A stretch of DNA of 64,000 nt from Thermasporomyces composti (lineage in GTDB: Bacteria; Actinomycetota; Actinomycetes; Propionibacteriales; Actinopolymorphaceae): positions 2,976,001-3,040,000 of the forward strand of contig NZ_QTUC01000001.1 in the NCBI RefSeq assembly GCF_003386795.1, written 5' to 3'. The position numbers and the translations under genes were made by a program. Under the pieces are notes generated by a model. It had not been told where the DNA came from and ran no database searches. It saw only the letters and a program-made list of their open reading frames with translations. Within the stretch, counting starts at the first letter, position 1; each line of letters opens with the position of its first letter. Below, piece by piece: positions 35,917 through 42,643 of the stretch.

Positions 35917-37326
35917 TCAGACGACGAGGACGGGCCGCTTGGCGGCGTGGGTGGTCGGTGGACTGTACGCGGACCACGCGGCCGCGAGCCGGTGGACGGC
36001 TTCGGTGAGCTTCGCCTGGGAGGCTCGGTAGTGCAGGCGGATGTACTGGTCGCTGCGGCCGGTGACGTCGAGGCCGGAGCCGGGGAGGATGGCGACTTTG
36101 TGGCGGAGGGCGGTCTGGGCGAAGGACGAGCCGTCGCCGTACGGCAGTCGCACCCACAGGCACTGCCCGCCGGTGACGGTCGGGACCTCCCAGTCCGGGA
36201 GCTTCGTCGCGAGCAGGGAACGCAGGTGGTCGTGCCGAGCCTTGAGCGTCTGGTGCAGAGCTGGGTCATCGAGGAACGGCAGCAGCTGGACCGCGGCCAG
36301 CTGCGTGGGCACGTCGCCGCCGAGGTCGTGGACCGCCCGGAGGCGGGCGAGCCGGTTGATCAGCGGCGTGGACGCTCGAACCCAACCGATGCGCAGGCCG
36401 CCCCAGATGCTCTTGCTGAGTGAGCCGACCGAGATCACCGAGTCGCCGTACGCCGCGATCGGCGCCGGCACCTGCTCACCGGGGAAGCGAAGGTCCGCCG
36501 GCACCTCGTCCTCGATCAGCGGAACGTCGGAGCTCGCGAGCCGTTGCCGAGCGAGCGTCGGGAGCACGGATCCGGTGGGGTTGTGGTACGTCGGGATGAC
36601 GTAGGCGAGCGCGGGACGCCGTTCACGGACCGTGGCCTCCAGCCCGTCCAGCCCGACCGGTAGGCCGCGGGGGACGGCGCCATGCCTCCGGAACACCTCC
36701 AGCGCGCCGGGATACGTCGGTGCCTCGACGAGCACCTGGTCGCCCGGTGAGAGGAGCGCGTGGGCGAGCAGGGAGAGGGCCTGCTGACCGCCGTTGGTGA
36801 CCAGGATCTGGTCGGGCGTCGTCGGCGCGCCGCGACTGGTGTACCGCTCCGCCAGCGCCGCTCGTAACGACGGATGACCGTACGGGTAGTAGCCGAGGTC
36901 GTCCTGGATCCGACCGAGCTCGGGGGCGATCCGCTGGAACGCCTCCGCCACGAAGCTCGGAGGCTCGTCGGGCGCCGCGCACACGGCGTGGAGGACGTCG
37001 TCGGGCCTCTCCAAGGAGTCGACGAAGAAGGGATCGATGGGTGCGTCCTTCGCTCGCGCGCCGTTGGGCTCACCGGCGACGCGGGTGCCGCTGCCTTGTC
37101 GCCGCGTGATCCGTCCTTCCGCGCGGAGGAGGTCGTAGGCCGCCACGACGGTCGTCCGTCCGACTGCGAGGGCGGCGGCGAGCGCGCGGTCGGGCGGGAG
37201 GAGCTCGCCGGGCGGCAGTTCGCCGTCGTCGATCAGCTGTCGCAACCGTGACGCGAGCAGCACGTACAGGGGCCCGCGCCCGGACGACCAGCGGCCCAAC
37301 CGATCGGCCAACTCAATTGGTCTCAT
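35917..37326 (-). CDS. MocR/PdxR-family regulator (GntR DNA-binding + aminotransferase fold)
   Basis: This 469-residue fusion has an N-terminal winged helix (1-80: SRLRQLIDDGELPPGELLPPDRALAAALAVGRTTVVAAYDLLRAEG) joined to a fold-type I aminotransferase domain. The PLP-Lys is visible in VGSLSKSIWGGLRIGW, with IPTYHNPTGSVLP (Asn-Pro) and IEDEVPADL in place. Such proteins sense PLP or amino-compound adducts. The ATG at 37326 sits inside an inverted repeat, so it probably controls its own translation or transcription together with the divergent aminotransferase gene. Confidence 0.9.
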   Translation of the reverse strand: MRPIELADRLGRWSSGRGPLYVLLASRLRQLIDDGELPPGELLPPDRALAAALAVGRTTVVAAYDLLRAEGRITRRQGSGTRVAGEPNGARAKDAPIDPFFVDSLERPDDVLHAVCAAPDEPPSFVAEAFQRIAPELGRIQDDLGYYPYGHPSLRAALAERYTSRGAPTTPDQILVTNGGQQALSLLAHALLSPGDQVLVEAPTYPGALEVFRRHGAVPRGLPVGLDGLEATVRERRPALAYVIPTYHNPTGSVLPTLARQRLASSDVPLIEDEVPADLRFPGEQVPAPIAAYGDSVISVGSLSKSIWGGLRIGWVRASTPLINRLARLRAVHDLGGDVPTQLAAVQLLPFLDDPALHQTLKARHDHLRSLLATKLPDWEVPTVTGGQCLWVRLPYGDGSSFAQTALRHKVAILPGSGLDVTGRSDQYIRLHYRASQAKLTEAVHRLAAAWSAYSPPTTHAAKRPVLVV

Positions 37327-37338
37327 TTGCAGACCAAT
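37316..37338. promoter_or_regulatory. MocR operator overlapping its own start codon
   Basis: The exact inverted repeat ATTGGTCT - 7 nt - AGACCAAT (37316-37323 and 37331-37338) surrounds the start codon of the MocR gene (37324-37326). A third half-site ATTGG follows at about 37345. It lies between the two divergent PLP-enzyme-fold genes, as MocR operators usually do. Confidence 0.65.
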
Positions 37339-37389
37339 AGTGCCCGATTGGCACTCCTCTCGGTCGAGACCGCCCAGGACCATGGCGGT

Positions 37390-38505
37390 ATGCCGACGTT
37401 CTCGCCGCACGAGATCCTGACGTTGATCGACCAACAGCCCCGGTACGAGCTGGGCGACAGTATCGGCCCGAGCCTCCGGCTCGCCGACCTGCTGAGCCCC
37501 GAGCTGGCTGACCTCGAGCTGGGCTACGGGACCTGCGCGGGTGACGCCGAGCTGCGGAGAGCGATCGCCGAGCGGTACGGCGTCGGCCCGGACGACGTCG
37601 TCGTCACCGTCGGCGGGGTGCACGGGGTCTTCCTGCTCTCGTACCTGCTCGTGGAGCCCGGTGCTCAGGTCGTCATGACCGCGCCGCTGTTCCCGATCAC
37701 GCGCACCATCGTCGAGTCACTCGGTGCGGACGTGCGTGTCGTCCCCCTGACGTTCGACGAGGGGTACCGACTCACCGCCGACGCGGTTCGTGCGCACCTG
37801 ACGCCCGACACGAGGCTGGTCAGCCTCACCACACCACAGAACCCGTCTGGTGTCGCGATACCGCTGTCGACGCTGCGAGAGGTCGCCCACGCGATGGCCG
37901 AGATCTGTCCGACCGCCTCCCTGCTGGTCGATGACACCTATCGGACGGCTGTGTACGGCGACGCCCCGCTCGCGCACCCCGCCGTGAGCCTGGGGCCGAG
38001 AGTCGTGTCGGTGGCGTCGGTGTCGAAGTGCCACGGCGCGGCGGGACTGCGGATCGGATGGGTCGTGACGACGGACGCTGAGCTGGTGGCCGCGTTGATC
38101 ATGGCGAAGGCCAAGACGGTCATCTCCCACTCGCCGGTGTCCGAGGCGCTGGCGCTCCGGCTGTTCGCGCGTGAGGACGAGATCCTCGCCGAGCGGCGTT
38201 CGTGGCTCGCGGAAAACCTCGCGATGACCGAGGACTGGGTCCGGGCCAACAGCGACCTGGTCGAGTGGGTCCGCCCGGATGCCGGCGCCACGTGCGCGAT
38301 TCGACTGGGCCCCGCCGTCGACCTCGACCGGTTTCGCCAGGAGACCGCTGAGCTGGGCGCTCACCTCGCGCACGGCGAGTGGTTCGACGACGTGCCGAAC
38401 GTCTCCTACCTGGGTTTCGGCTTCCTTCCCCCGGCTGACCTGAAGGGTGCGCTCGACGCGCTTCGGCGCGCTCTCCTCGCGTCCTGTGTGCGCCGCGCCG
38501 GATAG
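37390..38505 (+). CDS. Class I/II pyridoxal-phosphate aminotransferase
   Basis: This 371-residue fold-type I enzyme has ADLELGYGTCAGDAELRRAIAERYG, GGVHGVFLLSYLLVEPG, TTPQNPSGVAI (substrate Asn-Pro), LLVDDTYRTAVYGD (PLP-ring Asp, Tyr) and VASVSKCHGAAGLRIGW with the PLP Lys. It resembles aspartate/kynurenine-type transaminases; the amino donor is unknown. The ATG at 37390 gives the usual family N-terminus. It is divergent from the MocR regulator, its likely controller. Confidence 0.88.
   Translation: MPTFSPHEILTLIDQQPRYELGDSIGPSLRLADLLSPELADLELGYGTCAGDAELRRAIAERYGVGPDDVVVTVGGVHGVFLLSYLLVEPGAQVVMTAPLFPITRTIVESLGADVRVVPLTFDEGYRLTADAVRAHLTPDTRLVSLTTPQNPSGVAIPLSTLREVAHAMAEICPTASLLVDDTYRTAVYGDAPLAHPAVSLGPRVVSVASVSKCHGAAGLRIGWVVTTDAELVAALIMAKAKTVISHSPVSEALALRLFAREDEILAERRSWLAENLAMTEDWVRANSDLVEWVRPDAGATCAIRLGPAVDLDRFRQETAELGAHLAHGEWFDDVPNVSYLGFGFLPPADLKGALDALRRALLASCVRRAG

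Positions 38506-40267: not shown

Positions 40268-42643
<2,376 letters not shown>

Follow-up and report, generated by a model that had tools for sequence, protein, structure and literature searches.

Regulators of the MocR type are often described as divergent from target genes that they regulate positively, and as repressing their own transcription. The closest described relative of the system presented here is YczR, whose actinobacterial operator motif is given as GGCCA-N12-TGGCC, some families having two direct repeats and an inverted one (PMC4944035). A second likeness is offered by PdxR, for which mixed direct and inverted repeats, a gap shared with the target gene, and autorepression combined with activation have been described (PMC5320631). 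In the window, i.e. the whole stretch of 64 000 nucleotides of Thermasporomyces composti DNA analysed here, a mocR-type gene and an aminotransferase gene diverge from a common gap that contains a candidate operator made of three boxes (table 1). This system is a MocR divergon that stands nearest to YczR yet outside the YczR group, and its arrangement is of a kind already known. None of the literature matches listed describes this operator or this group of regulators; RegPrecise and the supplements of papers fell outside the scope of that search, and absence from print is not claimed.

Table 1. Features of the mocR-aminotransferase divergon (positions in the window).
Feature	Position	Strand	Basis
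mocR-type regulator P0001, 469 aa	35917-37326	-	ORF and Pfam domains
Candidate three-box operator, CCAAT-N8-ATTGG-N13-CCAAT	37316-37351	-	Conservation and DNA-pattern searches
Box 3, CCAAT, in mocR codons 3-4 and within the left arm of the inverted repeat	37316-37320	-	Conservation
Box 2, ATTGG, inverted relative to boxes 1 and 3, within the right arm of the inverted repeat	37334-37338	-	Conservation
Candidate mocR -10 element CACTAT, overlapping box 2 (weaker prediction)	37337-37342	-	A at second position in 23/31
Box 1, CCAAT (ATTGG on the plus strand), the third half-site of the first-pass annotation	37347-37351	-	Conserved columns
Predicted -10 element GACCAT of the divergent gene	37378-37383	+	nAnnnT at fixed distance from box 1
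Divergent class I/II aminotransferase P0002, 371 aa from ATG 37390	37390-38505	+	ORF, Pfam, relatives

By its predicted architecture, P0001 is a member of the MocR/GabR subfamily of GntR regulators. Indeed, it combines a GntR winged helix-turn-helix (PF00392, residues 24-83; 61.9 bits, cut-off 27) with a fold-type-I aminotransferase-like domain (PF00155, residues 121-447; 102.7 bits, cut-off 19.7), and its divergent gap holds repeated boxes in direct and inverted orientation, which is also a feature of the subfamily. The protein possesses a lysine, K305, within an SLSK motif, which we take to be the mark of the PLP-binding lysine; 53 of the 54 orthologues have K at this place, and one has Q.

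The YczR model is the closest one in NCBIfam (NF052290; 437.9 bits over residues 5-451), but this score remains below the curated cut-off of 487.4. The operator geometry is that of YczR, as CCAAT-N8-ATTGG is equivalent to CCA-N12-TGG, with a third, direct box in addition, whereas the half-sites differ (CCAAT here, GGCCA in the YczR motif; PMC4944035). The YczR/YczE divergon has a membrane protein, YczE, as partner, whereas the partner here is an aminotransferase, a cupin, a Cys/Met enzyme or an RraA-like protein, depending on which of 52 loci is considered. As for the signature residues described for YczR (PMC4944035), Val-Asp-Glu-Thr has its counterpart in EDEV in P0001 and mostly in DDEV or EDEV in its group, and the Glu preceding the conserved Arg corresponds to Asp46 in P0001. 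At the latter place, 45 of the 54 orthologues read PDR, and six read PER or AER. Filing the regulator as YczR was consequently rejected on score, partner and signature residues. P0001 scores weakly on the model of GabR from Bacillus subtilis (61.4 bits versus a cut-off of 600); the partner of GabR is the class III GabT, whereas the partner here belongs to class I/II, and the GabR boxes differ in sequence from the present ones. On the PdxR model, P0001 reaches 207.5 bits, below the cut-off of 320, and no gene of PLP synthesis was seen beside mocR when the window was inspected by eye.

The gap had drawn attention through an inverted repeat placed around the mocR start codon. Its two 8-bp arms are exact (ATTGGTCT, 37316-37323; AGACCAAT, 37331-37338), the ATG of the regulator does lie in the 7-nt spacer CATTTGC (CAT at 37324-37326 starts the minus-strand MocR frame), and the third ATTGG half-site could be located as well. 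With a spacer of 3-12 nt, the exact motif occurs once in the window, versus a mean of 0.00 in 100 shuffles, and the version with 7-bp arms has one exact copy in the 4.37-Mb genome, plus five further sites at two mismatches (three for the reversed control); both counts concern a motif that was chosen after having been seen. A blind count of perfect 8-bp arms with loops of 3-12 nt yielded 65 occurrences in the window, nested ones included, versus 21-38 in ten dinucleotide shuffles. Since the window is rich in such repeats, one more palindrome is no evidence in itself, and the repeat had to be judged on its conservation. In view of this blind count, the idea of a remarkable bare palindrome was dropped.

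Genome contigs were searched with the protein, leading to 48 loci (L082 being left out of the locus reading); one of the six peptide probes was the N-terminus of the window's own MocR, which biases the search towards loci with an operator overlapping the start codon. The exact operator was retrieved in 34 of the 35 protein-found orthologue loci (L035-L069; 55-79% identity) and in 11 of the 12 orthologue loci from whole genomes (L005-L016, including the window, and with several species also represented among L035-L069). Its spacers are always of 8 and 13 nt, even though the search expression permitted 6-10 and 11-15. By contrast, none of the 30 more distant loci (L017-L034 and L070-L081; identity of at most 42%) displays the exact operator, the match at L077-L080 spanning the aminotransferase-like part only. 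In the genome of T. composti itself, the operator exists as a single exact copy. At one orthologue locus, L016 in genome G012, box 1 carries one mismatch and mocR is split into two matches (residues 1-290 and 282-468); regulator and operator may be decaying together there.

The first-pass annotation had let its reading depend on conservation in orthologous gaps, and the repeat region is indeed kept in them. The span it had proposed was too narrow: the repeat is real and operator-like, but the conserved unit extends over 37316-37351 and consists of three boxes, not of a single palindrome.

An aminotransferase had also been named as the divergent partner, which holds for the window but is not constant, since other loci have a cupin or a PLP enzyme of Cys/Met metabolism instead. 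Eleven proteins encoded by divergent genes, P0002 included, were assigned through Pfam to Aminotran_1_2, Cupin_2, Cys_Met_Meta_PP and, in one weak case, an RraA-like family, and the type of the remaining partners came from tblastn or from visual inspection of their N-termini. In total, the 52 loci with an exact operator comprise 24 aminotransferases, 13 cupins, 14 Cys/Met PLP enzymes and one RraA-like protein (L014).

These 52 loci were reduced to 31 non-redundant ones (less than 80% identity over 156 nt) for the analysis of the flanking columns, which were not selected for, as opposed to the 15 box letters, which are invariant by selection. Next to box 1, an A is found in 31 of 31 loci and a G in 30 of 31 (37355 and 37354 in the window, four and three bases upstream of the box). 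On the divergent strand, the A at position 28 and the T at position 32 after box 1 are each present in 29 of 31 loci and reach 1.65 and 1.59 bits, while the other divergent-side columns do not exceed 0.84 (beyond the five bases adjoining box 1). The hexamer nAnnnT thus occupies positions 27-32 in 29 of the 31 loci, versus at most five for any other offset. Over all 52 loci, it is found next to 23 of 24 aminotransferases, 13 of 13 cupins, 13 of 14 Cys/Met enzymes and the single RraA-like gene, and the two misses (L043 and L091) exhibit, by eye, a similar hexamer shifted by one base. Likewise, 49 of the 52 loci have the start codon of the partner at 38-39 nt from box 1 (aminotransferase, 22/24; cupin, 13/13; Cys/Met, 14/14; RraA-like, 0/1), L014, L053 and L054 breaking this rule. 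For P0002, the distance is 38 nt when counted to ATG 37390, a start common to the relatives, unlike the TTG of the longest aminotransferase reading frame.

In Mycobacterium tuberculosis, a TANNNT motif centred 7-12 bp before the start is reported as the -10 element of 73% of primary transcription starts, and about a quarter of the genes with a mapped start are reported as leaderless (PMC3898074). The conserved hexamer fits this -10 motif. A -10 element at a fixed place, combined with a start codon at 38-39 nt from box 1, would put the transcription start on this codon or immediately beside it, and the mRNA of the divergent gene is accordingly predicted to be leaderless. The same study found M. 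tuberculosis to lack a conserved -35 in general (PMC3898074), so that the lack of a -35 hexamer is no proof of activator dependence.

These positions lead to a proposal on the mode of action. The three-part site probably serves as a binding site for the neighbouring regulator; most likely, this protein turns its own gene off and the adjacent enzyme gene on, a sign that we infer from position and relatives. Relative to the predicted start at 37390, box 1 lies at -43 to -39, box 2 at -56 to -52 and box 3 at -74 to -70: the site ends just upstream of the expected -35, at a constant distance from the -10 (29/31 loci, and 8/8 dissimilar loci found later), which is the layout to be expected of an activator site. 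Read from the mocR side, the operator takes in the candidate -10, the start and the ATG of that gene. It is from this combination of an upstream-activator position with a covered mocR start region that activation of the partner with autorepression is proposed. Boxes 1 and 3 are direct repeats separated by 31 bp from centre to centre, or approximately three helical turns, with the inverted box 2 between them. A MocR dimer could sit on boxes 1 and 3, box 2 offering an inverted contact as an alternative. Once bound, it would lie over the -10 of mocR, its transcription start and its start codon, thereby repressing this gene, and would touch RNA polymerase from the same site, just upstream of the divergent promoter, thereby activating the partner. 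The switch would be set by an amino compound able to bind, as an aldimine, to the PLP in the aminotransferase-like domain. Overall, we consider it likely that 37316-37351 is the operator through which the adjacent MocR would act in both directions. The initial idea that the bound regulator covers its own start as well as the aminotransferase promoter can be retained for the mocR start region, but the core of the aminotransferase promoter falls outside the operator, which ends 26 bp short of the -10.

A simpler scheme would have MocR repress both divergent genes until an amino effector releases it, box 1 blocking the -35 region of the partner. It gains from box 1 abutting the expected -35 position, and from the MocR member EnuR, which represses and whose predicted sites lie over the -10/-35 of its target (PMC8739950), a precedent that counts against activation. 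However, the gap between operator and partner -10 is constant in three partner families, as for an activator site, whereas the site of a plain repressor could sit nearer, over the promoter core, and GabR, TauR and several PdxR are described as activating their targets (PMC5320631). Simple repression of both genes consequently seems unlikely to us.

The operator was also searched for by its DNA pattern alone. Among 394 genomes of the class, 17 were hit, with 17 sites, one per genome (reversed control: one genome), and all 17 sites adjoin a P0001-like MocR (48-63% identity, or the window's own). The families of three hit genomes provided 14 (120 genomes), 0 (35 genomes) and 26 (38 genomes) new sites, of which 39 out of 40 have a P0001-like MocR in the same 3-kb locus, bringing the ratio to 56 of 57 pattern sites. 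Twenty of the sites are not fresh, their region being identical to one known from the protein search (2 of the 13 MocR-linked sites in the 120-genome family, 18 of the 26 sites in the Kribbella family). At these 13 loci, both the hexamer and the start-codon distance are found 13 times, including 8 out of 8 for the loci less than 80% identical to every earlier one; the Kribbella family contributes 26 loci, each with an earlier locus at 80% identity or more, where the distance holds 26 times and the hexamer 25 times. The operator, with its alternating box orientation and invariant spacing, accompanies this group of MocR regulators in several families of actinobacteria. As it is kept both in orthologous gaps and in pattern-found loci, the repeat does look like part of an operator tied to the adjacent MocR, as first supposed.

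Every hit genome has one operator site, except G506, which has two. The second (L120, 1430-1536) is an exact operator without MocR, where the start-codon distance is satisfied by chance and the -10 test failed; it is perhaps a relic of the divergon, or due to chance. This site adjoins a stretch with a faint likeness to a cupin (38% over 21 aa, E 0.015). Within the genome of T. composti, tolerating up to three mismatches led to eight sites (including the operator and one site overlapping it) versus nine for the reversed control, and a second target is therefore unsupported.

Control of the divergon by a regulator other than the adjacent MocR thus appears improbable, given the association in 56 of 57 cases and the near-universal single site per genome. 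Moreover, a crude clustering of reading frames (L035-L069 and the window) did not detect any other gene common across genera, although such a gene might escape notice in the largest cluster, where overlapping frames are merged.

On the mocR side, box 3 is read as CCA-AT at 36 of the 52 loci, as xCC-AAT at seven and as xxC-CAA at one, and lies upstream of the start codon at eight (19, 3, 1 and 8, respectively, among the 31 non-redundant loci); of the other proline codons in these mocR matches, 148 out of 2089 (7.1%) are CCA. Such a variety of frames, together with the upstream cases, indicates that a DNA word is conserved and not a peptide. The placement of the start codon within the site, emphasized by the first-pass annotation, is hence true of the window but inessential. 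The candidate mocR -10 element is weak, and the pattern searched for includes its last two letters.

An RNA hairpin around the start codon, controlling the translation of mocR, could also be imagined, as the 8-bp arms of the window could pair around the AUG. However, the outer three pairs of the arms (TCT/AGA) are poorly kept among relatives (Watson-Crick in 15/31, 12/31 and 22/31), box 1, which stands outside the hairpin, is equally constant in the protein-found loci, eight of the 52 loci have the operator upstream of the start, and the predicted mocR transcription start would leave box 2 off the mRNA. This reading, very improbable in our opinion, was rejected on the first two grounds. Finally, a chance palindrome devoid of function, to which the blind count lends some plausibility, is hardly credible, as comparative data contradict it: sequence and spacing are conserved across families, and in differing frames.

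On a quick maximum-likelihood MocR tree (61 rows, two of them partial), the partner type (aminotransferase, cupin or Cys/Met) needs at least five changes, although well-supported branches alone force fewer. The operator-promoter cassette would be independent of the enzyme driven. It is conceivable, and we put it forward tentatively, that MocR, its operator and the promoter attached to it constitute a portable sensor-switch cassette, which has been put to use repeatedly with unrelated enzymes: an aminotransferase of GntC/VioD-like type, a small cupin, a PLP enzyme of the Cys/Met family and perhaps an RraA-like protein. Naming the window's aminotransferase GntC or VioD was rejected; its scores (180 and 170 bits) are far below the cut-offs (415 and 391), and no substrate is therefore claimed.

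In related bacteria, one switch would thus drive several unrelated enzymes. If the effector is one and the same at all loci, these non-homologous enzymes should all work on that compound or on its products, and the partner set could then reveal an unrecognised amino compound, possibly sulphur-containing, met by soil actinobacteria; a sulphur compound is hinted at by one partner family only. As regulator, operator and promoter stay constant while the enzyme changes, these loci offer a way into how regulators gain new targets, and into what MocR proteins sense, a question still unanswered for most of them. More immediately, an eye-catching palindrome has become a defined candidate operator whose mechanism can be tested, and its DNA signature allows this divergon to be found in the genomes of other actinobacteria.

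The window's MocR nests within Kribbella sequences (SH-aLRT 97), whereas its genome is coded as another family, which suggests that the two-gene unit of mocR and aminotransferase was gained by horizontal transfer. What the window and the Kribbella loci have in common, according to a crude comparison, is limited to the two divergent genes (35917-38505). Further along the window, a plus-strand reading frame of 791 aa (40268-42643) reads, by eye from its translation, like a UvrA-type ABC ATPase.

Two observations concern the boxes themselves. Several distant MocR paralogues (L017-L034) display GAGCCAAT or ATAGCCAAT followed by GTGG 9-10 nt further on, i.e. related CCA/TGG boxes, which we interpret as a related operator with diverged half-sites. 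Lastly, at L060 (Streptomyces rimosus, 2883-2918), the one protein-found orthologue locus of the 35 that departs from the exact operator, boxes 1 and 2 are kept adjoining a cupin-like gene and box 3 is lost, making this locus a natural test of the need for box 3.
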